The notes beneath the pieces were generated by a model that saw nothing but the letters and a program-made list of their open reading frames with translations, did no database searches and had not been told where the DNA came from. From Chloroflexota bacterium (GTDB taxonomy: Bacteria > Chloroflexota > Anaerolineae > Anaerolineales > UBA11579), in contig JACPVG010000022.1 in the NCBI GenBank assembly GCA_016191875.1, forward strand, positions 1 to 64,000: a DNA stretch of 64,000 bases. Reading direction: 5' to 3'. The position numbers and the translations under genes were made by a program. Shown piece by piece: positions 6,073-57,089 of this stretch. Positions within the stretch are counted from its first letter, which is position 1. Every line of letters starts with the position of its first letter.

Positions 6073-6543
6073 ATGCCCACCATGAAGCAGAACCCGAGGC
6101 CGGCGCCCAAGCCGGCCGGTAAACCCGGCGGTTACGTCAAATTCTCCGACAAACTGACGCAGTCGCTCAATGATATCGAGCGCATGATCCAGGACCACAA
6201 GGACATGATCGATGCCATCCAAGAGGTGGCGCTCGAGCTGACCGGTGCGATCGGCACACTGCACACGCTGACAGTCAAGTATGCGGGGAAGGCCAACCAG
6301 ATCCTGGACGCGTTGCTGCCTATAGTGAAGAACCTTCCAATCATCCCCAAGAACGTGACGGCCCTGCTGGTGGAAATGGAGAAATACACTCAGAATATCA
6401 TCGACACAAGCGCCCGGACCGCCAAGACGATAAGCGATGTGCACGGTGGGCTGCAGACCGGTGACGTCTCAAAGTTGAAAGGCCATGCGGGCGACCTGAA
6501 AACAGTCACGAATACCCTTACGGCCATCCTGCCCAAGGCCTGA
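6073..6543 (+). CDS. Hypothetical helical protein
   Basis: I do not recognise this 156-residue protein. The first 20 residues are Pro/Lys-rich and probably disordered. The rest is predicted mainly alpha-helical with heptad-like spacing ('LNDIERMIQDHKDMIDAIQEV', then 'ANQILDALLPIVKNL' and 'VEMEKYTQNIIDTSARTAKTI'). There is no signal peptide, membrane segment or Cys. It follows the second DegV gene by 51 bases, has AAGGAGAGGAAG at 6057-6068 as ribosome-binding site, and ends just before a clear terminator, so it may close the DAK2/DegV operon. It resembles in style the 172-residue helical protein at 44.5 kb. Confidence 0.7.
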   Translation: MPTMKQNPRPAPKPAGKPGGYVKFSDKLTQSLNDIERMIQDHKDMIDAIQEVALELTGAIGTLHTLTVKYAGKANQILDALLPIVKNLPIIPKNVTALLVEMEKYTQNIIDTSARTAKTISDVHGGLQTGDVSKLKGHAGDLKTVTNTLTAILPKA

Positions 6544-6700: not shown

Positions 6701-8326
6701 ATGCGTCGCCGCGAACTTTTCTTCTCTCCCTCAGCAATCTTTGCGTTCGGAATCATCGTCCTCGCGCTCCTGGCATGGTATGCCTGGCGCGGCCAGACCA
6801 TCTTTAGTCCCGACCGGCTTTCCGCCGCTGGCGAACCGGCTGAAGCGCTCAACGGCTGGGCCAACCACGCCGAGTTCGAAGCGGAATGTGCGTTGTGCCA
6901 TCAGCCCCTGAAGGTGGAGATGGCGGTGCTATGCCTGGATTGCCATACCCCCATTGCCGAGGAAATCGACGCCAAGCGCGCCCTGCATGGCTTGTTGCCC
7001 GAAGGCGCGGGCTGCCTGGCCTGCCATACCGAGCACCTTGGGACGGACGCCGACCTGCGCGCCCTGGCGCGCCCCTATTTCGACCACAGCCTGGCTGCGT
7101 TCAGCCTTGCCTTGCACGCTGGGGACTATGGCGGCCAACCGTTGGAGTGCAGCGCCTGCCATCCCGGGCCGGGTTTCGAGTTTCGGGCGCAGGACTGCCA
7201 GGACTGCCACGCCGAAGATTCCCCCGCCTTCATGGCCGAGCACCTGGCAGCATTCGGGGGGGAGTGCCTCGACTGCCATGACGGTGTGGACCGCATGTCC
7301 GATTTCGACCACGCCGTGACGGATTTTTCCCTGGAGGGCGAACACGCCGGGCTGGAATGCCAGGCATGCCATTCGCCAGCGCAGGACGTGCCGCACCGTT
7401 GTCAGGACTGCCATGCCGAGCCGGAAGCGCACCGGGGCCGGTTCGGCATTGACTGCGTCGCCTGCCACACCCCGGCCGGCTGGAGCCCGGCGGCGTACGA
7501 TCACCCGGATGTGCTGGCCGCGGACTGCGCTGGCTGCCACTTGCCCGACCGACCCGAACCGCATTATCCGGGGCAATGCTCGCTATGCCATGGAACGGAG
7601 GCATGGACGCCGGCCACCTTCGACCACCGGACGGCGCAGGCCGAGGATTGCCAGATGTGCCATGCCGCTGTGAGGCCGGAACGGCACTATCCGGGCCAGT
7701 GTTCGGCCTGCCACAGCACGGAGGCGTGGACGCCGGCGACGTTCGACCACCGGGTGGCCGGGGCGACGGATTGCGCGGCCTGCCATGCGGGGCAGAAGCC
7801 GGAACAACATTATCCCGGTCAGTGTTCGGCGTGCCACAGCACGGAAGCCTGGACGCCGGCGACGTTCGATCATCAGGTGGCCGGGGCCACCGACTGCCAG
7901 CTCTGCCATGCCAATGACCAGCCAGCCAACCACTACGGCAGCCAATGCGGGGCGTGCCATAGCACGCGCGGCTGGACGCCAGCGTCGTTCAATCACAAGC
8001 TGGCCGGCGCGACCAACTGTGTGAGTTGCCATGAAAACGACCGTCCAGCCAATCACTTCCCGGGACAGTGTTCGCAATGCCACAGCACGGAGAACTGGAA
8101 AGCGAACTTCAAACACTCCTTCCCAATGAATCACGGCGACGCGAATGGTCGTTGCGATGCCTGCCACGTTACGGCCAGCTTCGGTGTGCCCTGCACCAAT
8201 TGCCACCGCTCGAGTGAAATCACCAAGAAGCACAATGAAGAAGGCATCTTCGATATCTCCAATTGCCTGAACTGCCATCCGAACGGGGATAAGGAAAAGG
8301 GCGGAGGCGGAGGGGATGATGACTGA
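6701..8326 (+). CDS. 22-haem c-type cytochrome, membrane-anchored
   Basis: A 541-residue multihaem cytochrome c exported by an N-terminal uncleaved signal-anchor (hydrophobic residues about 11-28, after 'MRRR'). I count 22 CxxCH haem c attachment motifs spread over the whole exported part (e.g. CALCH, CLDCH, CVACH, CQMCH, CNNC-type variants absent; the last is CLNCH). Many free His residues (FDH, HYPGQ) can serve as distal ligands. From about residue 247 the protein is built of 41-residue repeats, each with two haems. The C-terminus is a short Gly/Asp tail. It heads a tightly linked module with an iron-sulfur protein, an FAD oxidoreductase and a b-type membrane protein. An electron-conduit role outside the membrane is inferred; the final acceptor is unknown. 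Confidence 0.92.
   Translation: MRRRELFFSPSAIFAFGIIVLALLAWYAWRGQTIFSPDRLSAAGEPAEALNGWANHAEFEAECALCHQPLKVEMAVLCLDCHTPIAEEIDAKRALHGLLPEGAGCLACHTEHLGTDADLRALARPYFDHSLAAFSLALHAGDYGGQPLECSACHPGPGFEFRAQDCQDCHAEDSPAFMAEHLAAFGGECLDCHDGVDRMSDFDHAVTDFSLEGEHAGLECQACHSPAQDVPHRCQDCHAEPEAHRGRFGIDCVACHTPAGWSPAAYDHPDVLAADCAGCHLPDRPEPHYPGQCSLCHGTEAWTPATFDHRTAQAEDCQMCHAAVRPERHYPGQCSACHSTEAWTPATFDHRVAGATDCAACHAGQKPEQHYPGQCSACHSTEAWTPATFDHQVAGATDCQLCHANDQPANHYGSQCGACHSTRGWTPASFNHKLAGATNCVSCHENDRPANHFPGQCSQCHSTENWKANFKHSFPMNHGDANGRCDACHVTASFGVPCTNCHRSSEITKKHNEEGIFDISNCLNCHPNGDKEKGGGGGDDD
7439..8176 (+). repeat. 123-bp tandem repeat coding two haems per unit
   Basis: Inside the cytochrome gene six units begin at 7439, 7562, 7685, 7808, 7931 and 8054, an exact 123-bp (41-residue) period. 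Typical unit text is HYPGQCSACHST, EAWTPATFDH, VAGATDCAACH. Units 2-4 are nearly identical in DNA, while the first and last are diverged, which suggests recent internal duplication. Confidence 0.9.
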
Positions 8327-8347
8327 CCCGCGAAGGTTTTCCCGGCG

Positions 8348-8623
8348 ATGAGTTTTCGCGAGCACCTCACCAGCGAGGCCCGCCACCGGCAGGCGCTGGC
8401 CGTGGGACTGGTTGTACCCGACAACTCCCGCTGTGTGCAGTGCGGCATCTGTTCTTTTAATTGCCCGATCGGCATCGATGTGCGCCAGCATGCCTGGCTT
8501 GGCAAACCGGTGGAGGACAGCCACTGCCTGACGTGCGGCACCTGCATCCAGAAATGCCCACGCGGCGTGCTGCGGTTCGAGCGCGGCAGCCTGCATCTTG
8601 GCGCGACCGAGGTGGGGCGATGA
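8348..8623 (+). CDS. 2x[4Fe-4S] ferredoxin-like protein
   Basis: A 91-residue cytoplasmic iron-sulfur protein. Two complete cluster motifs are present: Cys29, 32, 35, 39 ('CVQCGICSFNCP') and Cys60, 63, 66, 70 ('CLTCGTCIQKCP'). The spacing and the short linker resemble HdrC / GlpC-type electron-transfer subunits rather than a free 2[4Fe-4S] ferredoxin. The stop overlaps the next gene's ATG (ATGA at 8620-8623), so it is probably translated with, and binds to, the FAD oxidoreductase. It would relay electrons between flavin and the membrane b-type protein. The partner assignment is inference from the operon. Confidence 0.9.
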   Translation: MSFREHLTSEARHRQALAVGLVVPDNSRCVQCGICSFNCPIGIDVRQHAWLGKPVEDSHCLTCGTCIQKCPRGVLRFERGSLHLGATEVGR

Positions 8624-9936
8624 CCCGCCATGTCATTGTCGGCACTGGAGTAGCGGGCGTTTCCGCCGGGCTGGCGATCCGCTCCGTAGACCCGGGAGCA
8701 GAGATCGTTCTCATCGGGCATGAGCCGGAAAAATACTATTCGCGGCCAGGGTTGGCCTACCTGCTTTCCAGCGAAATACCCGAACGCATGCTGTTCCCTA
8801 TGCAGGCGCGCGATTTCAAGGCCCGGGGGCTGACGGTGTTGGACGGAATCGTCGAGCGCATCGACCCGACCGCATGCAGCCTGCATCTGCGCGGCGGCCA
8901 GGAGATAGCCTACGACCGGCTGCTGGTGGCAACCGGCGCAGCGGCCGTGCTGCCCGACCTGCCAGGCATGGACCTGAAGGGCGTAGTGAAGCTGGATGAT
9001 TTTAGCGATGCTCGACGAATCCTGCGGCTGGCGCGGCGCGGCCGCCGGGCGGTGGTGGTGGGGGGCGGCATCACGGCACTGGAGATCGTTGAGGGGCTGG
9101 CCAGGCGCGGGCTCAGGGTGCATTACCTGCTGCGCAAGGAACGCTACTGGGCCAACGTGCTGGACGAAGCCGAATCGCGCATCGTCGAGGGCCGCCTGCG
9201 CCATGAGGGCGTGACGCTGCACTATCATTCCGACGTGGAGGCGCTGCTCGGCAAGCGCGGGCGGGTGACCGGCCTACGCCTGGCCGGGGGTGAGCAACTG
9301 GCGTGCAGCCTGGTGGCTTTTGCAGTCGGCATCCGCCCGCGCTTGGAACTCGCCCGGGCGGCTGGGCTGAACCTCGACCGCGGCATCCTGGTCAACGAGT
9401 ATCTCGAGACCGGCGTGGCGAGAATTTATGCCGCTGGGGATGCGGCCCAGGTCTACGACCCGCTGAGCGGCCGCCACATCCTCGATTCGCTCTGGAACCC
9501 GGCCCGCGAACAGGGCCGGGTCGCTGGGCTCAACATGGCCGGGCAACGAACTGCATACATCAAAAAGGCCGCTTTCAACGTCACCCGGCTGGCGGGACTG
9601 ACCACGACCATCATCGGCGCGGTGGGCGGCGGGCAGGACGCTGACCTGGTGGGAATTGCGCGCGGCGACAGCGAAGCCTGGCGCGACCTGCCGCATGCTA
9701 TCGCTTGCCAGACGCACACGGAGGTCAACCGGGTGCGGGTGATGGTGGGGCGGCGTACGCTGATCGGCGCCGTCGTGATGGGCGACCAGACCCTTTCGCA
9801 GCCCTTGCAGGAACTCATCACCGAGCAGGTGGACATCAGCCCGATGCGGGCAGCGCTCATCCAGCCCGGGGGCGCGGTGGTCGACAGATTGCTCGATTTC
9901 TGGAGTGAGTGGAGACAGACCCATGGCCCGCAATGA
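8620..9936 (+). CDS. FAD-dependent pyridine nucleotide-disulfide type oxidoreductase
   Basis: A 438-residue flavoprotein with two Rossmann folds: FAD site 'IVGTGVAGVSAGLAI' at the very N-terminus, NAD(P) site 'AVVVGGGITALEIVEGLARRG' near residue 145, and the second FAD motif 'ARIYAAGDAAQVYD'. It lacks a redox-active CxxxxC, so it resembles rubredoxin reductase and NirB-type reductases rather than thioredoxin reductase. The C-terminal ~120 residues form an extra domain probably for partner binding. The frame runs upstream to 8461 inside the ferredoxin gene, but the ATGA overlap and the FAD motif at once after it fix the start at 8620. Likely moves electrons between NAD(P)H and the iron-sulfur protein. 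Confidence 0.88.
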   Translation: MTRHVIVGTGVAGVSAGLAIRSVDPGAEIVLIGHEPEKYYSRPGLAYLLSSEIPERMLFPMQARDFKARGLTVLDGIVERIDPTACSLHLRGGQEIAYDRLLVATGAAAVLPDLPGMDLKGVVKLDDFSDARRILRLARRGRRAVVVGGGITALEIVEGLARRGLRVHYLLRKERYWANVLDEAESRIVEGRLRHEGVTLHYHSDVEALLGKRGRVTGLRLAGGEQLACSLVAFAVGIRPRLELARAAGLNLDRGILVNEYLETGVARIYAAGDAAQVYDPLSGRHILDSLWNPAREQGRVAGLNMAGQRTAYIKKAAFNVTRLAGLTTTIIGAVGGGQDADLVGIARGDSEAWRDLPHAIACQTHTEVNRVRVMVGRRTLIGAVVMGDQTLSQPLQELITEQVDISPMRAALIQPGGAVVDRLLDFWSEWRQTHGPQ

Positions 9937-10690
9937 CTCTCGTCCATTGTGGATCGCGCTGGCGGCCATTCTGGCGCTATCCGTCCTGTACCTCTGGGTA
10001 ACCGTGGTCATCGGCTCTATCCCGGCGGCCAGCGAATTCTTCGGCCACTCGCTGGGGGTGATCGGTTTTCTGCTCATGGTGAGTACGGAAACGCTTTATT
10101 CCATTCGCAAGCGCAGCCCGCGCTTCAATGTGGGCCGTCTGTCCATCTGGCTGGAGTTCCATATCGTCACCGGCCTAGTCGGGCCGTTCATGGTGCTGCT
10201 GCACTCGGCGTGGAAGTTCAATGGGCTGGCCGGGGTGGTGCTGTTGCTGACGGTCCTGATCGTATTGAGCGGTTTTGTGGGACGATATATCTACACCGCG
10301 CTGCCGCGCACCGCCGATGGGCTGGTGCTGGAGGCTGAGACGCTGAAGGCCCTGATGACCGACGCGCAGGCCCGGCTGGATGCTGTGCTGGGGCAGGTGG
10401 ATGAACGCACCCGCCGCTCGGTTCAGGTCCTGCTGGGGCGGCCGCGCGCCCGGCTGGGGTGGCTGCTCGCCCGGCGCGCCGCGCCCGGCGCGGCCCGCCC
10501 GCTTCTCCGCCAGGTGCAGGACGCCGCCCTGCGGCTCACCGCGCTGCGCCGCCAGCACCGCCTGCTGGCGGCGGCCCGCCGCGCGCTGGCGCTGTGGCAT
10601 GCGGTGCACGTCCCCATCGGGTTGGCGCTGTTTACCACGGCTTCGGTGCACATCGTCGCGGCGTTCTATTACGCGACAATGCTGCGCTAA
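9923..10690 (+). CDS. Putative di-haem b-type membrane protein
   Basis: A 255-residue integral membrane protein with about five membrane helices (roughly 10-31, 42-58, 74-98, 102-122, 224-248) and a basic, Arg-rich cytoplasmic loop at about 130-222. His80 and His94 lie in helix 3, and His229 and His243 in helix 5; each pair is 14 residues apart. This is the bis-haem pattern of ferric-reductase/NOX-like and cytochrome b proteins, so I infer two stacked b haems spanning the membrane. The start at 9923 (GGAGA at 9911-9915) overlaps the oxidoreductase stop; a GTG at 9905 is possible. It would link the cytoplasmic flavin/Fe-S proteins to the exported multihaem cytochrome. Confidence 0.75.
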   Translation: MARNDSRPLWIALAAILALSVLYLWVTVVIGSIPAASEFFGHSLGVIGFLLMVSTETLYSIRKRSPRFNVGRLSIWLEFHIVTGLVGPFMVLLHSAWKFNGLAGVVLLLTVLIVLSGFVGRYIYTALPRTADGLVLEAETLKALMTDAQARLDAVLGQVDERTRRSVQVLLGRPRARLGWLLARRAAPGAARPLLRQVQDAALRLTALRRQHRLLAAARRALALWHAVHVPIGLALFTTASVHIVAAFYYATMLR

Positions 10691-10705: not shown

Positions 10706-10733
10706 AACGACCCTGCCGTGTGACAGGGTCGTT
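10706..10733. terminator. Bidirectional terminator
   Basis: AACGACCCTG (10706-10715) pairs with CAGGGTCGTT (10724-10733). Read on the minus strand it is followed by TTTTTGTTT, on the plus strand by GAGATTTT. It separates the convergent electron-transfer operon and M23 gene. Confidence 0.85.
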
Positions 10734-13449: not shown

Positions 13450-14457
13450 TCACCGGCCACCCAGTTTCACCGGCCTGGCGAGCAGGGCGAGCAGTAGTTT
13501 GACGCTGTTCTGCACGTCGCCGTAATCCACCATCTCCGAGGGGCTGTGGACATAGCGGCAGGGGATGCTGAGGCAGCCGACCGGCACGCCGGCGCGGGCC
13601 ATCTGAATCGAGCGGGCGTCGGTCGTGCCGCCGGAGAGCACTTCGCGCTGGAACGGCAGGCGGGCCTTCCTGGCCCCGGCTTCCATCCAGGCCACCACGC
13701 GCGGGTCGCTGATCATGCCGCTATCCTTGACCTTGATGGCCGGACCGTTACCGAGGGCGACGGCCATGGTATCGGCGTTGGGCGTATCGCCGGTGAGGGT
13801 GACGTCGAGGGCGATGCCCAGGTCGGGGTCGACACCGTAGGCGGCGGTCGTCGCGCCGCGGATGCCAACTTCTTCCTGGGTGCTGAACACCCCCACGACT
13901 TCGTGGGGAGTGGCTTTGAGGCCCTTCATCACTTCGACCAGGATGGCGACCCCGATGCGGTCGTCCATGGCTTTGGCGACGAGACGCCCGCCGAGGTCTT
14001 CGAAGGGCCGGTCGAAGGCGGCCACATCGCCAACGCTGACCTTTACCCCGGCGCGGCGGCTGGCACCCAGGTCGATGTACATTTTATCCAGGCCGGGGAC
14101 GCTGCTGGTGTTCTTGTGGGCTTCCAGGCCAATGACGCCGACCTGGCCGGTCTTGAGGAAGCGCACCCGCCCGCCGGCGGTGTTGCGTGGCAGGACGCCG
14201 CCGATGCTGGTGAAGCGCACGAAGCCGTTGTCGTCAATGTGGGTGGCGATGATGCCGATCTCATCCAGATGAGCGGAGAGCATGATGGTGAGGCCGTCCA
14301 CGCCCTTCTTGCCCTTGCGGGCGATGAGGTTGCCGAGCGCATCCACCTTCATCGAATCGACGTGGCCTTTGAGCATCTTCTGCACCAGAGCGCGTACTTC
14401 GCCTTCGTAGCCTGAGGGGCCGATGGCTTCAACCAGTTGGCGGATGATGTCTTTCAT
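13450..14457 (-). CDS. M42 family metallopeptidase, copy 1
   Basis: A 335-residue cytoplasmic dinuclear-metal aminopeptidase of the M42 (TET) family, which form dodecameric cages that trim peptides. All expected ligands are present: 'SAHLDEIG' (His63, Asp65), 'AMDDRIG' (Asp166), 'QEEVG' (Glu195/196 as catalytic acid and ligand), 'ALDVT' (Asp218) and the C-terminal 'RYVHSP' (His). It is the last of three tandem M42 genes transcribed on the minus strand; 52 bases separate it from copy 2. Family members differ in side-chain preference (Glu, Lys, Leu), which I cannot deduce from the sequence. Confidence 0.92.
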   Translation of the reverse strand: MKDIIRQLVEAIGPSGYEGEVRALVQKMLKGHVDSMKVDALGNLIARKGKKGVDGLTIMLSAHLDEIGIIATHIDDNGFVRFTSIGGVLPRNTAGGRVRFLKTGQVGVIGLEAHKNTSSVPGLDKMYIDLGASRRAGVKVSVGDVAAFDRPFEDLGGRLVAKAMDDRIGVAILVEVMKGLKATPHEVVGVFSTQEEVGIRGATTAAYGVDPDLGIALDVTLTGDTPNADTMAVALGNGPAIKVKDSGMISDPRVVAWMEAGARKARLPFQREVLSGGTTDARSIQMARAGVPVGCLSIPCRYVHSPSEMVDYGDVQNSVKLLLALLARPVKLGGR

Positions 14458-14509
14458 AGGAGTTCTCCAAACGTCCGGGTGTGAGCGCGGCGGTTGCGTG
14501 ATGCGTCGT

Positions 14510-15598
14510 CTAGCGCGCGCCCTTCAGGGTGTCGCGGTCGATATGGCCGAGGGCGGCGTGCACCAGGGCCAGGGTGTTTTTCCAATCGTCAAAGCGCACG
14601 ATGGCGGCCGGGGTGTGCAGGTAGCGGCCCGGCACCGAAATGGACAGGCTGGGGACGCCAGCTCCGGCCTTGTGAATGGCGCCCGCATCCGTCTGGCCTC
14701 CGCCGGGTTGGCGCATCTGGTGGGGGATGGCGTAGGTTTCGGCAACCGCCCGGAAGTGGGCCACCAGGCGCGGGTCCGCGAGCGTACCGCCGTCGGCCAC
14801 GTAGATGGCCGGACCGCCGTCCAGCCGGCTGCGGTAGAGGGTGTTCTCGCGGCCGTCCGAGACGGGCAGGTCCATGGCCGGAGTGCAGTCCAAGGCGATA
14901 GCGAGGTCGGGCTTGAGGGCATAGGCGGCCACGCGCGCCCCACGCAGGCCGATCTCTTCCTGGACCGTGAAAGCGGCCAGCAGGTCGATATTCGGCGGGG
15001 GGTGGCGCAGGATGGCGATGAGCGTGGCGACGCCGATGCGGTCGTCGAGGGCTTTGCCGCGCAGGCTGGGGCCCAAGCGGGCAAAGCGGGTGGCGAAGGT
15101 GGCCCAGTCGCCGGGTTTGGCTTTTTTGGCGCTGGCGGGGCCGAGGTCGATGCGCAGAGCGTCGGCTGTCAGGGCGTTGCTGCGCTCACCGGCGGTGGTC
15201 AGGTGGATGGGTTTGGCGCCGATAATGCCGGGGTGCTGTTTTTCGCCGACCCAGACCGGCTTGCCGGCCAGGGTGCGCTCGTCCAGGCCGCCGACGAGTT
15301 CGAAGCGGAAGATGCCGTCACCGTCGTCGGCGGTGAGCATGAGGCCGACCTCGTCCATGTGGGCGGCCAACATCACGCGCGGGAGGGCCGAACCGCGCCC
15401 GTGTTTAACCGCCAGGACGTTTCCGAGCGCGTCCACCCGGACATCGTCGGTTAATCCCTTGATCTCAGCCAGCACGATGCGGCGCACGGCCTCCTCATTC
15501 CCGGAGACCGCGCTGGCGTTGGAGAGGCGTTCCAGCAGATTGAGTTCAGGGGCGCCCAGGCGGGGGGCCTTCCAGGCGGACTTCTTGCGAATCGCCAT
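14510..15598 (-). CDS. M42 family metallopeptidase, copy 2
   Basis: A 362-residue M42 aminopeptidase, the middle gene of three. The metal and catalytic residues are intact: 'AAHMDEVG', 'ALDDRIG', 'VQEEIGLRG', 'ALDCTPAMD' and 'GRYLHTP'. Compared with copy 1 it has a longer N-terminus ('RKKSAWKAP...') and a distinctive segment 'GGGQTDAGAIHKAGAG' before the last His ligand. Its ATG shares one base with the stop of copy 3 (15598), so the two are translationally coupled. The divergence between copies suggests different substrate preferences, together covering a wider range of peptides. Confidence 0.92.
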   Translation of the reverse strand: MAIRKKSAWKAPRLGAPELNLLERLSNASAVSGNEEAVRRIVLAEIKGLTDDVRVDALGNVLAVKHGRGSALPRVMLAAHMDEVGLMLTADDGDGIFRFELVGGLDERTLAGKPVWVGEKQHPGIIGAKPIHLTTAGERSNALTADALRIDLGPASAKKAKPGDWATFATRFARLGPSLRGKALDDRIGVATLIAILRHPPPNIDLLAAFTVQEEIGLRGARVAAYALKPDLAIALDCTPAMDLPVSDGRENTLYRSRLDGGPAIYVADGGTLADPRLVAHFRAVAETYAIPHQMRQPGGGQTDAGAIHKAGAGVPSLSISVPGRYLHTPAAIVRFDDWKNTLALVHAALGHIDRDTLKGAR

Positions 15599-16683
15599 CA
15601 GGAGGCTTCTCCTTCGCCGGGCGTGTCAAGGCGCAATTTTTCCATAAAGGCGTCATCCAACCCGCTGATGAACTCAGCCAGCAGGCGGGCGGCGCGCTCG
15701 ATGTCCTTGGTGTGGATGATCTCGACCGGGGTGTGCATGTAGCGCAGCGGGATGCTGAGGATGGCGGTGGGGATGCCTTCGGCGGCCACCTGGAGCAGGA
15801 TGGCATCCGTGCCGGAACTCTGGGCATAGACGCTGGGCTGGATGGGAATCTCCAGCCGCCGGGCGAGGTTTTCCACTTCCTTATAAAGGCGGGGGTGGGT
15901 GTTTGGCCCCCAATCCAGAGCCGGCCCCTTATTCATCTCAAAGGCTTTGTGGGCAGGCGCGCCGGGGCTTTTGGCAAACGTCACATCGATGACCACCGCC
16001 AGCGTGGGGCGCAGGGCGTAGCCGCTGGTGAGCGCGCCGAAGAGGGTGATCTCTTCCTGGACGGTCGCCACCGCCCAGACATCCCAGGCGTGGGTGCGGG
16101 TCTGGAGCAGGCGCAATGTCTCCGTGAGGACGGCCACGCAGGCGCGGTTATCGAGCGAGTGGCCGACCAGCAGGTCGCCATCCAGTTCCTGTGGGAGGGT
16201 GGCAAAGGAGATCAGGTCGCCGACCTGCACTGCGCGCCGGGCTTGAGCCGGCCGCAGACCGGTATCCACGCGCAAGTGGGCGAGCGAAGGAACCCCTGAG
16301 GATTGATCCTCCGGCAGCGCGTGGGCAGGCGGGATGACGATAACGCCCGGCAGGTCGCCGCCGCGGGCATGCAGCGTGACCAATTGGCCGGGCAGGACGC
16401 GGGCATCTATCCCGCCGATGGCTTCAAGATGCAGCAGGCCGGCGGCATCCACGTCTTTGACCATCAGGCCGATGGCATCCATGTGAGTGACGATCGCCAG
16501 GCTGTTACGCGGGGCTTTGGCGCGCCCGCGTTTGAGGGCATGCAGGCTGCCCAGGCGGCTGGTGTGCTGCTCGTCGGTGAGGGGCTGCCAGGCGGATTCG
16601 AGCAGGGCATGGATGGGCGCCTCGTGGCCGGAAAGGCCGGCGACGCTGATCATCTGCTTGAGGTGTTCCCTGGTTTCTTCCAT
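15598..16683 (-). CDS. M42 family metallopeptidase, copy 3
   Basis: A 361-residue M42 aminopeptidase, first gene of the trio. Ligand motifs: 'VTHMDAIG', 'HSLDNRAC' (Asp kept, second Asp of the usual DDR replaced by Asn), 'VQEEITLFGA' (the usual Gly after EEI is Thr) and 'RYMHTP'. It is the most divergent of the three and, with these changes near the active site, may have altered specificity. Its stop overlaps the start of copy 2 by one base. The gene upstream is the Thr/Pro-rich protein 10 bases away, so all four may share a transcript. Confidence 0.9.
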   Translation of the reverse strand: MEETREHLKQMISVAGLSGHEAPIHALLESAWQPLTDEQHTSRLGSLHALKRGRAKAPRNSLAIVTHMDAIGLMVKDVDAAGLLHLEAIGGIDARVLPGQLVTLHARGGDLPGVIVIPPAHALPEDQSSGVPSLAHLRVDTGLRPAQARRAVQVGDLISFATLPQELDGDLLVGHSLDNRACVAVLTETLRLLQTRTHAWDVWAVATVQEEITLFGALTSGYALRPTLAVVIDVTFAKSPGAPAHKAFEMNKGPALDWGPNTHPRLYKEVENLARRLEIPIQPSVYAQSSGTDAILLQVAAEGIPTAILSIPLRYMHTPVEIIHTKDIERAARLLAEFISGLDDAFMEKLRLDTPGEGEAS

Positions 16684-48685: not shown

Positions 48686-50146
48686 ATGAATAGGAAGAAT
48701 AAGGCCAGATGGCTGCTGCCACTGACGTTGGTGCTGGCTCTGGCGCTCTCAGGTTGTTTCCCCGAATCGCCGGAGCAGAAGGACGCGCGCGCTACGGTGG
48801 TGGCCTTGAGCACCGAAATGGCCGCCGTGCAGTCCGAGGTCTTTCCGCAGCCGGCTGAACCGGTGGAGTACCCGGCCGCCGATGTGGTTTACACCCTGAC
48901 GACTGGGGCAGAAGGCACCAACCTGGTATTCATCGGCGTGGGCGGCGAGATCGACGGGGTGGTCAACCCAACCCTGACAGCCGACCCCGGGCAGGTGGTG
49001 CAGATTCGCGTGATCAACGGCATGGCGGTCGAGCATGACCTGCGGATTGATGAGTTCGATGTTGAGACCGGTTCGCTGCTCGCTGAGGGTGAGGAAAAGG
49101 TCATCACCTTCAGGGCGGACGAGGTGGGCGTTTACAAGTACTACTGCTCCATCCCCGGCCATCGCGCGGCGGGCATGGAAGGCACCCTGCAGGTTGGCGA
49201 TGCCGAAGTGGCAGGCGCTACCGGAGCGAACATCGTGCGCCACCCAGCTGACCTGCCCGGGCCCATCGGCGCGCGCGGGCCGGAACTGGTCCAGGTGGAA
49301 CTGACCGCCCAGGAAGTGGTGGGCCAACTGGCGGACGGGACAACGTACAACTACTTCACGTACAACGGTGCGATTCCCGGTCCATTCATCCGCGCCCGGG
49401 TGGGCGACACGGTGGAAGTCACGCTCAACAACGACACCAGCTCCACATTCGTCCATTCCATTGACCTGCATTCGGTGAACGGCCCCGGAGGCGGCGCGGT
49501 GTACACCCAGGTGGAGCCGGGGCAGAGCAAAGTATTCACCTTCCAGGCTCTGCAGCCGGGTGTCTACGTCTACCACTGCGCCACGCCCAGCCACGCTCAT
49601 CACATCCAGTCCGGCATGTACGGCCTGATCCTGATCGAGCCGGAGGGTGGCCTGCCGCCGGTGGACAAGGAGTTCTATGTGATGCAGGGCGAAATCTACA
49701 CCGCCGAGCCGTTTGGCACGGCGGGCCTGCTCACGTTCGACCATGAGGCCATGCTGGACGAGGACCCGGAATACCTGGTGTTCAACGGCGCGGCCGGTGC
49801 GCTGGCCAGCGAGGTCAATGCTCTGCAGGCCGAGGTGGGCGATACGGTGCGCATCTACTTTGGCGTGGCCGGGCCGAACTTCACATCGTCCTTCCACGTG
49901 ATCGGCGAGATCTTTGACAAAGTCTATCCGTACGGCTCGATCACGTCGCCAGCCATCACCGACGTGCAGACGGTGACGGTGGCCCCCGGCGGGGGGGTGA
50001 TCGTGGAGTTCACGATTGACGTGCCGGGACGATACATTCTGGTGGACCACGCGCTCAGCCGCCTGGAGCGCGGGCTGGTGGGCTTCCTGTTCGCCACCGG
50101 CGAGGGTGAGCCGGGCATCTTCTACGAGGGTCCGTACCAGCCTTGA
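48686..50146 (+). CDS. nirK: Copper nitrite reductase fused to N-terminal cupredoxin
   Basis: Reduces nitrite to nitric oxide. The 486-residue lipoprotein (lipobox LSGC, Cys24) has an extra N-terminal cupredoxin domain with complete type 1 copper ligands (His117, Cys154, His159, Met164), then an AniA-type nitrite reductase core. Core ligands: type 1 His257, Cys298, His306, Met311; type 2 His262, His297 and His455; catalytic Asp260 and His404 in 'SSFHVIGEIFDKVY'. The extra domain could feed electrons straight into the enzyme. AGGAGG at 48674-48679 supports the ATG at 48686. It ends before a strong terminator. Alternative: a multicopper oxidase, but all NirK residues are present. Confidence 0.92.
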   Translation: MNRKNKARWLLPLTLVLALALSGCFPESPEQKDARATVVALSTEMAAVQSEVFPQPAEPVEYPAADVVYTLTTGAEGTNLVFIGVGGEIDGVVNPTLTADPGQVVQIRVINGMAVEHDLRIDEFDVETGSLLAEGEEKVITFRADEVGVYKYYCSIPGHRAAGMEGTLQVGDAEVAGATGANIVRHPADLPGPIGARGPELVQVELTAQEVVGQLADGTTYNYFTYNGAIPGPFIRARVGDTVEVTLNNDTSSTFVHSIDLHSVNGPGGGAVYTQVEPGQSKVFTFQALQPGVYVYHCATPSHAHHIQSGMYGLILIEPEGGLPPVDKEFYVMQGEIYTAEPFGTAGLLTFDHEAMLDEDPEYLVFNGAAGALASEVNALQAEVGDTVRIYFGVAGPNFTSSFHVIGEIFDKVYPYGSITSPAITDVQTVTVAPGGGVIVEFTIDVPGRYILVDHALSRLERGLVGFLFATGEGEPGIFYEGPYQP

Positions 50147-55262: not shown

Positions 55263-57089
55263 ATGCAGCCCATTCTGACCCTCGACCTGACCCGCGGCGA
55301 AAGCGGCATTTACGAGATTCCCGAGGACTGGCAGCGCGATTACCTGGGCGGGTCGGGGCTGGCGGCGCGCATCCTGTATGATGCCCTCACGCCTGAACTC
55401 GACCCGCTCGGACAGGAGGCGCCGCTGCTGTTCCTGAACGGTCCGCTTTCCGGGACGGCCGGCCCGACGGTGGGCCGGTTTGTGGTGTGCGCCAAGAGCC
55501 CGGCCACCGGCTTATGGGGTGAGAGCAATTGCGGCGGCTTCTGGGGCGTGGAGTTGCGCAAGACCGGCTTCGATGGGTTACTGCTCACCGGCCGGGCGGA
55601 AGGACCGGTGTATCTGTTCATCGACGACGGGGATGTGGACATCCTGCCGGCGGCGCACCTGTGGGGCAAGGATACGTATACCATCCAGGAAGCCATCAAC
55701 GACGAGATCAAAGGCGGGAAGGTGCGCGTGTTGGGCATTGGCCCGGCGGGCGAAAACCTGCTGCCGAGCGCGTTGCTGCTGGCCGACCACGGCCGGGTGG
55801 CCGGGCGCACCGGGATGGGAGCGGTGTTGGGCAGCAAGAACGTCAAGGCCATCGCCGTGCGCGGCACGCAGCCCATCCTGGTGGCGGACCCCGCCCGCTA
55901 CGACCCGCTGCGTTCGGCGGCCAACCGGGCGCTGAAGGGTGACAACTTCACTATTACACTCCGCGAAATGGGGTCGGCGACCGCCGCGGATTACTTCGAC
56001 TATCTGGGCGAAATGCCCAAGAAACACTTTCAGGCCGGGGTGATGGAAGGCGTCGAACGACTCTCGGGGGCCAGCATCAGCGAGTCGATCCTGGTGGGCT
56101 ACTCGGCCTGCCATGCCTGCGTGGTGGCCTGCGGGCGGGTAGTGCAGCTGCCGGGAGAAAAGCACAAGCGCAAGGGCCCAGAATACGAAACGCTTATGGG
56201 TTTTGGCGCCAACCTGTGGATCGACGATCCGGCTTTCGTGACCCGTATGGGCGAGATCTGCGATATCTACGGGATGGACAGCATCAGCACCAGCAACACA
56301 CTGGGGCTGGCGTTTTCGCTCTATGAACTGGGCATCATCACCAAGTCGGACACCGGCGGGTTGGAGTTGGAGTGGGGCAGCCATGACGTGGTCGAACGTT
56401 TGCTGCATATGGTCCCCGCGCGGGAAGGTTTCGGGGCGCAGCTGGCGGAAGGGGCGCGGGCTCTGGGCCGGCGCTACGCTGCCGAAGAACGCGCCGTCCA
56501 GGTCAACGGGCTGGAAGTGGCTTACCACGACCCGCGCGGCGCATCCGGCATGGCGCTGGTGTATGCCACCTCGCCGCGCGGCGCCTGCCATAACCAGTCG
56601 GACTACTTCCTGGTGGATATCGGCCAGGTGGAGGAAACGCTGGGGATGGAATTTCACGAGCGCCAGGGGGGCGCGGACAAGGCGGCCAACGTCGCCAAAC
56701 ACCAGGACTGGCGCACGGTGTTCAACAGCCTGGTGATCTGCTATTTCGGCAATGTGCCGCCGGAAACCGTGCTGGACCTGATCAACACCGCCTGCGGGCT
56801 GGAGTGGGGCATCGCGCAGATGCTGCGCTGCGGTGAGCGCGCCTGGAACCTCAAGCGGATCATCAACAACCGGCTGGGCGTGACGCGCGCCAACGACACG
56901 CTGCCCAAGGCGCTGCTGGAACCGCTGCCGGACGGCGGCTCGGCAGGCTACATCGTGCCCTTTGATGAGATGCTGCGGGCTTACTACAAAGCCCGGGATT
57001 GGGATTGGGAGACAGGCCGGCCAACCCCCGCCAAACTGCACGAACTGGGGCTGGGCTGGGCGGCCGGGGAGCTATGGCCGGAGAATTGA
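55263..57089 (+). CDS. Aldehyde:ferredoxin oxidoreductase family enzyme
   Basis: Tungsten (or molybdenum) pterin enzyme that oxidises aldehydes to acids with ferredoxin, or reverses it. The 608-residue length is normal for AOR. Features: N-terminal 'LTLDLTRGESGIYEIPEDWQRDYLGGSGLA', the pterin-binding 'TGRAEGPVYLFIDDG', 'GPAGENLLPSALL' and 'RTGMGAVLGSKNVKAIAVRG', the [4Fe-4S] motif 'CHACVVACGR' and the later cluster Cys in 'LINTACGLEWG'. Its start is 4 bases after the SCP2 gene and its end overlaps the epimerase start by 16 bases. The substrate may be hydrophobic, given the SCP2 partner. W or Mo cannot be told apart here. Confidence 0.93.
   Translation: MQPILTLDLTRGESGIYEIPEDWQRDYLGGSGLAARILYDALTPELDPLGQEAPLLFLNGPLSGTAGPTVGRFVVCAKSPATGLWGESNCGGFWGVELRKTGFDGLLLTGRAEGPVYLFIDDGDVDILPAAHLWGKDTYTIQEAINDEIKGGKVRVLGIGPAGENLLPSALLLADHGRVAGRTGMGAVLGSKNVKAIAVRGTQPILVADPARYDPLRSAANRALKGDNFTITLREMGSATAADYFDYLGEMPKKHFQAGVMEGVERLSGASISESILVGYSACHACVVACGRVVQLPGEKHKRKGPEYETLMGFGANLWIDDPAFVTRMGEICDIYGMDSISTSNTLGLAFSLYELGIITKSDTGGLELEWGSHDVVERLLHMVPAREGFGAQLAEGARALGRRYAAEERAVQVNGLEVAYHDPRGASGMALVYATSPRGACHNQSDYFLVDIGQVEETLGMEFHERQGGADKAANVAKHQDWRTVFNSLVICYFGNVPPETVLDLINTACGLEWGIAQMLRCGERAWNLKRIINNRLGVTRANDTLPKALLEPLPDGGSAGYIVPFDEMLRAYYKARDWDWETGRPTPAKLHELGLGWAAGELWPEN

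Follow-up and report, generated by a model that had tools for sequence, protein, structure and literature searches.

The described electron conduits closest in kind to the locus analysed here are PCC3 and PCC4, two porin-cytochrome systems put forward for iron oxidisers. He et al. (2017, PMC5566968) proposed that their membrane protein binds two b haems and is active with quinone, and also noted clusters that have no porin but combine a similar protein with another redox gene. Nearer to the present host, the largest cytochrome reported for the Chloroflexi isolate A. maritima has seven haems, and no similar membrane module was described there (PMC5808234), while Anaerolineales were reported to have very large cytochromes and no porin complexes, the mechanism being left undecided (PMC7399161). 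Here we describe four genes at positions 6701-10690 of a 64,000-nucleotide stretch, henceforth the window, of a Chloroflexota draft genome (3.2 Mb, 36 contigs, 91% complete; contig JACPVG010000022.1 of assembly GCA_016191875.1).

The genes, which we call CYT, FER, FAD and MEM, form an operon-like run on the plus strand, as read from the window, with a gap of 21 bases between CYT and FER and overlaps of 4 bases (ATGA) between FER and FAD and of 14 bases between FAD and MEM. The gene content, the coordinates, the 22 CxxCH motifs of CYT, the eight cysteines of FER, the 4-base overlap and the MEM histidines H80/H94 and H229/H243 had been described in a first-pass annotation of the window, and all of these proved correct to the base. 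We think it fairly likely that the four genes specify one transmembrane electron conduit that is independent of quinone, driven by NADPH and directed outward, in what is presumably a one-membrane (monoderm) cell. What the sequences show is which genes are present, how well the set and its cofactor residues are conserved, five predicted membrane helices, an orientation given by charge bias and the recurrent pairing of MEM homologues with three flavoprotein/iron-sulphur (Fe-S) units; that haems are bound, that the partners touch, that NADPH is preferred, that electrons flow outward, what finally accepts them and that the host has a single membrane are our inferences. The features of the locus are as follows.

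6701-8326 (ATG to stop), plus strand: CYT, a 22-CxxCH cytochrome that may be membrane-anchored, 541 residues (motif count, Pfam, hydropathy)
8348-8623, plus strand: FER, a protein with two [4Fe-4S] motifs, 91 residues (Pfam, invariant cysteines)
8620-9936, plus strand: FAD, a flavoprotein of the Pyr_redox_2 class (Pfam, PDB match, invariant residues)
9923-10690, plus strand: MEM, a five-helix membrane protein predicted to bind two b haems, 255 residues (invariant histidines, b561 matches, AlphaFold)
10706-10733, minus strand: a terminator-like stem of 12 pairs followed by a T run on that strand (consensus match only)

The terminator-like stem parts the four-gene run from the convergent next gene and is oriented for that facing gene.

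Comparison with described systems

MEM and the inner-membrane protein of PCC3 and PCC4 both have five helices, two of them (3 and 5) carrying WX3HX13H and helix 4 carrying SGXXG, and both adjoin multihaem cytochromes, those in the periplasm having a median of 21 haem sites in PCC3 (PMC5566968) compared with 22 in CYT. The module differs in regularly including a flavoprotein and a 2[4Fe-4S] protein and in having a Chloroflexota host; no porin-like gene was recognised on reading the window neighbourhood, no beta-barrel predictor having been run. PCC3 and PCC4 are the closest kind; because no porin is seen, FAD and FER are present and the likeness to their membrane protein is one of motifs, we do not file the module under either name. 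The first-pass annotation knew of no named system with exactly this gene order, and we likewise found no paper naming the order in the openly licensed literature (weak evidence of absence); the membrane-protein signature, however, is one that PCC3 and PCC4 already share.

In principle the module also resembles ferric reductases and NOX enzymes (FRE/NOX, PF01794) and bacterial MsrQ, in which b haems stacked on helices 3 and 5 lead from a cytoplasmic flavin to the outside, and HX13H on two helices, as in ferric reductase/NOX, is present in 75 of 75 MEM members. Unlike FRE/NOX, the module has separate flavoprotein and Fe-S subunits and a multihaem cytochrome after the outer haem. Prokaryotic b561 proteins differ in their partners, which are catalytic subunits of hydrogenases or dehydrogenases, whereas MEM is accompanied by a flavoprotein and a cytochrome wire. 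The pairing of a flavoprotein with a 2[4Fe-4S] subunit recurs in PadF/PadH of phenylglyoxylate dehydrogenase, although FAD is set apart from PadH, from AorC (aldehyde oxidoreductase) and from the N-terminal domain of NirB by an Arg in place of the NADH-type Glu and by its membrane-conduit context. Electrons also exit single-membrane cells through FLEET (Ndh2/PplA) and in Ardenticatena and Thermincola, the latter two having surface multihaem cytochromes. FLEET uses quinone and flavin proteins; none of its genes ndh2, eetAB and pplA was recognised at the locus, the rest of the genome not having been searched for them.

Conservation of the four-gene module

A scan of one genome per species with MEM returned 205 relatives, and we read the best 80 loci. 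The first-pass annotation had raised the possibility that the four genes are rarely found together; instead, all four lie within 6.5 kb on one strand in 70 of these 80 loci. Eight of the ten incomplete loci are truncated where a contig stops near MEM or one of its partner genes, in another (L058) the best-hit rule overlooked a 15-haem gene immediately downstream, and in the last (L096) MEM and a cytochrome run into a contig end 1.4 kb further on. The commonest order is FER-FAD-MEM-CYT (45 loci), followed by the window type, CYT-FER-FAD-MEM (16 loci). As these statistics start from MEM, they show that MEM implies the module, and as they describe the best-scoring loci, distant members may differ.

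MEM homologues were present in 15 of 61 sampled near relatives and in 57 of 400 Chloroflexota genomes, with the four genes together in most relatives of the same order. By MEM, the nearest named public relative in the scan is an Anaerolineae metagenome-assembled genome (MAG) with 71% identity. Hosts among the best 80 are mostly Anaerolineae, together with Chloroflexales (Chloroploca, Oscillochloris), two MAGs labelled Planctomycetota and one labelled Actinomycetota. Between pairs of loci, the divergence of MEM, of FAD and of FER rises together (r 0.72-0.76, compared with a shuffle maximum of 0.29), which fits inheritance as a unit, with shared species history contributing. Module cytochromes have a median of 19 motifs and up to 42, and many loci carry one to three additional cytochromes of 10-42 motifs, often in tandem. 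At two loci (L028, 14343-18002; L037, 681-5079) the module lies near a 15-CxxCH cytochrome with Tat-exported and membrane proteins, neighbours that resemble a quinol-oxidising module, a function read by eye only.

A predicted di-haem b membrane protein

The paired histidines of MEM, H80/H94 and H229/H243, are each 14 residues apart (HX13H). Two such pairs arose in 0.8% of MEM shuffles, a rarity that, with their conservation in 75 of 75 sequences, rules out a chance origin. Invariant across the 75 sequences are H42, H80, H94, H229, H243, W76, W225 and S116-G117..G120-R121, while H226 is kept in 74, and every member contains two WX3HX13H motifs and one SGXXG. The Pfam cytochrome b561 family (PF01292) matches 34 of the 75 members at E values up to 0.01 (best 8.9e-7), the window copy alone giving no significant match to it, and the ferric reductase family PF01794 matches two of the 75 weakly (best 0.006). 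That MEM might prove to be an unrelated permease had been considered in the first-pass annotation, and the b561 matches together with the invariant putative haem histidines rule this out.

AlphaFold2 predicted five membrane helices and a helical hairpin between helices 4 and 5. Judged by length, the hairpin is absent in about a fifth of members and so appears not to be needed for the core function. Counts of Lys plus Arg (N-terminus 2.3, loop 1 0.5, loop 2 5.7, loop 3 0.9, loop 4 15.6) show a positive-inside bias by which the N-terminus, loop 2 and the hairpin are predicted to be cytoplasmic. With topology set by this bias, H80 and H229 would sit towards the cytoplasmic side of the membrane and H94 and H243 towards its outer side, and we infer that the layout is the one expected for two stacked b haems. 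Searches of the PDB with the MEM sequence and the MEM profile gave no relevant match.

Flavoprotein, iron-sulphur protein and cytochrome

FAD belongs to the Pyr_redox_2 family of Pfam (1.9e-50), has the AorC-like chain 8c0z_E as its top PDB match (7.5e-39) and counts NirB, PadH and AorC as its nearest relatives, yet it scores far below the cut-offs of the PadH and NirB equivalogs of NCBIfam (173.7 vs 475 and 175.8 vs 578 bits, respectively). Where NADH oxidases and CoA-disulfide reductases have their redox Cys motif, FAD has S-R-P-G, invariant in 75 of 75 sequences, and for this reason it is most simply taken for an electron-transfer flavoprotein. Lacking a redox Cys near the FAD cofactor, it was ruled out as an NADH oxidase/peroxidase or a CoA-disulfide reductase.

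Glutathione reductase, which uses NADPH, has Arg at the dinucleotide motif, and lipoamide dehydrogenase, which uses NADH, has Glu. At the second dinucleotide motif of FAD, the Glu of AorC (VVEMGDR) aligns with L171; the next residue, R172, is invariant in 75 sequences and R175 nearly so. An invariant Arg where NADH enzymes carry Glu predicts a preference for NADPH. The donor, given as NAD(P)H in the first-pass annotation, can thus be narrowed to probable NADPH. Elsewhere in the window, 45 kb from the AorC-like FAD, positions 55263-57089 encode an aldehyde ferredoxin oxidoreductase (AFOR_N and AFOR_C domains), beside which no AorB/AorC-type partner was noticed.

FER contains CxxCxxCxxxC twice and matches Fer4/Fer4_10 at about 1e-8, and its eight cysteines are all invariant in 74 sequences; having no membrane segment, it is predicted to be a cytoplasmic relay. 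CYT has exactly 22 CxxCH motifs, where residue shuffles give a mean of 0.33 and a maximum of 3, spaced at about 25 residues per haem in repeated HYPGQCSACHSTEAWTPATFDH units, and it matches the Pfam families Cytochrome_C7 (1.6e-21) and Cytochrom_CIII (1e-20). It has 44 Cys in total, and the 23 His beyond the motifs would make bis-His ligation of every haem possible. Near the N-terminus, residues 6-24 are hydrophobic (mean hydropathy 2.4) and may anchor the protein in the membrane instead of being cleaved off as a signal. A search of the PDB with the CYT sequence found no relevant match. A small helical open reading frame (6073-6543) adjoins CYT upstream, as one does in the nearest relative (L024, 12338-12838), and was not seen as a regular module member in other loci.

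Exchange of partners around distant MEM homologues

With a profile of the Chloroflexota MEM family we identified distant homologues that keep all four haem-type histidines: on an Emticicia plasmid (E 8e-44, set for a million-sequence database), on plasmids of Alteromonas, Methylophaga, Bradyrhizobium, Spirosoma and Rhizorhabdus (1e-22 to 1e-11) and in large-genome Chloroflexota, which by their size may be akin to Ktedonobacteria. The Emticicia homologue is accompanied by a fused 2[4Fe-4S]-flavoprotein of another family and by two cytochromes, one with 23 CxxCH motifs and one with at least 32, and those on the other plasmids by an FNR-[2Fe-2S] protein and a 7-CxxCH cytochrome. The part that stays constant is MEM with its four haem-type histidines, and on the inside it is in every case paired with an NAD(P)H-type flavoprotein and an Fe-S relay. 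Genes that merely happened to be neighbours would not be exchanged for others of like function, and we therefore regard this recurrence as the strongest evidence for the electron path. The path drawn in the first-pass annotation (NAD(P)H-FAD-[4Fe-4S]-b haems-multihaem c) accordingly gains support from conservation and from the swapped partners, its direction and haem content being predicted.

The presence of b561-type matches raises the alternative that MEM exchanges electrons with menaquinone, FAD and FER feeding or draining the pool and CYT forming an outer branch. The b561 subunits of hydrogenases act on quinone, a quinone hypothesis has been published for proteins with the same motifs (PCC3/PCC4, PMC5566968), and the invariant H42 and nearly invariant H226 could form a quinone site. 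Both residues persist in Emticicia but are missing from the forms with a 7-haem cytochrome or none; they thus track long wires, and other branches of the family do without them. That an NAD(P)H flavoprotein and an Fe-S relay accompany MEM in nearly every locus, and that distant forms swap in other NAD(P)H units, fits direct feeding better, and the host already has complex I. We consider a quinone-linked conduit unlikely.

The triad of FNR-[2Fe-2S] protein, MEM homologue and 7-CxxCH cytochrome recurs on plasmids (L139, 4058-7541; L140, 3945-7301; L141, 6979-10469; L142, 4160-7514; L119, 3857-7442), its MEM homologues being annotated as hypothetical or as iron reductase. The Bradyrhizobium triad sits among genes of the pentose-phosphate pathway, a source of NADPH. 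Other triads adjoin a [NiFe]-hydrogenase (Alteromonas), a multicopper oxidase (Spirosoma) or metal-related genes (Rhizorhabdus, Methylophaga), and these short-wire relatives, like the other multihaem proteins of the host genome, lend something to a second alternative: that NADPH supplies reductant through MEM and CYT to reductases at the cell surface (nitrite, peroxide, metal detoxification, hydrogenase) and not to distant solids. No exported reductase lies regularly beside the four genes in the loci inspected, however, and the module cytochromes are long and often in tandem, and we regard this role as quite unlikely.

Proposed electron path

In the outward, quinone-independent conduit that we favour, NADPH would reduce FAD in the cytoplasm, FAD would deliver single electrons to the two [4Fe-4S] clusters of FER, and FER would reduce the inner b haem of MEM (H80/H229). 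Electrons would then pass to the outer b haem (H94/H243), to the putatively membrane-anchored 22-haem CYT and on to an extracellular acceptor, which may be a mineral, humic matter, a partner cell or another cytochrome. No quinone would be needed; the module would work like a ferric reductase or NOX enzyme with a cytochrome wire on its outer haem, serving as a redox valve or in NADPH-linked extracellular respiration rather than as a proton pump. We favour outward flow because the electrons, on leaving a cell whose interior is negative, would move downhill in both redox and electrical terms, at the cost of some membrane potential.

Flow in the opposite direction, from Fe(II), other cells or an electrode through CYT and MEM to the reduction of NADP+ for biosynthesis, would suit some hosts of the module, among them Chloroflexales such as Chloroploca, which are anoxygenic phototrophs. 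PCC3 and PCC4 have been proposed for iron oxidation (PMC5566968), and A. maritima performs both anodic and cathodic transfer (PMC5808234). Inward flow would nevertheless run uphill twice, into an inside-negative cell and up to the potential of NADPH, and no energy-coupling subunit was seen in the cluster; we judge it quite unlikely.

Several points weigh against the outward, NADPH-driven conduit. The haem content and redox behaviour of the module are predictions from sequence, its exit wire would need a surface partner, and a quinone-active role has been proposed for the similar membrane protein of PCC3/PCC4 (He et al. 2017, PMC5566968). Foldseek comparison with the PDB of predicted MEM structures, both for the window copy and for a short-loop member, gave no significant match to a haem protein. 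The helices of these models are confident and the hits were BAR-domain-like noise only, single long helices dominating the comparison and the models being haem-free, an outcome that appears to be neutral, neither supporting nor excluding a b561-like fold. Finally, CYT is not part of every version of the module, since large-genome Chloroflexota carry FAD, the 2[4Fe-4S] protein and MEM with no multihaem gene nearby. In several of these loci (L120-L128) a conserved small membrane-anchored protein of about 110-130 residues lies upstream and could be the outside partner there.

Host genome and neighbouring genes

The host genome encodes complex I, a haem-copper oxidase, cytochrome c assembly genes and several further multihaem proteins, and the host is therefore respiratory and probably facultative. 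Elsewhere in the window, positions 48686-50146 encode a protein with cupredoxin and multicopper-oxidase domains, and 13450-16683 on the minus strand hold three adjacent, similar peptidase-like genes, probably an M42-type tandem family (judged by eye).

Significance

What is new is the joining of a flavoprotein/[4Fe-4S] input to a PCC3/PCC4-like membrane protein whose motifs were already known. Two WX3HX13H helices and SGXXG, beside FER and FAD, provide a search signature, and the concrete prediction is that the donor is NADPH rather than quinol. Anaerolineae abound in sediments and bioreactors and carry many large cytochromes, and for them the module offers a testable answer to how electrons cross the envelope; cells that have no outer membrane could use it to respire with minerals or partner cells. 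Through the swapped flavoproteins, the function of the MEM family can also be tested in cultured Emticicia, Alteromonas or Bradyrhizobium. More tentatively, we suggest a widespread, quinone-independent and NADPH-powered conduit of Chloroflexota, in which a di-haem b hub would be served inside by any of three flavoprotein/Fe-S units and outside by no cytochrome, by 7-haem cytochromes or by cytochromes of 15 to more than 40 haems. If true, this would define a modular reductase family, and the orphan membrane protein of the PCC3/PCC4 type would be re-read as a nicotinamide-fed hub.

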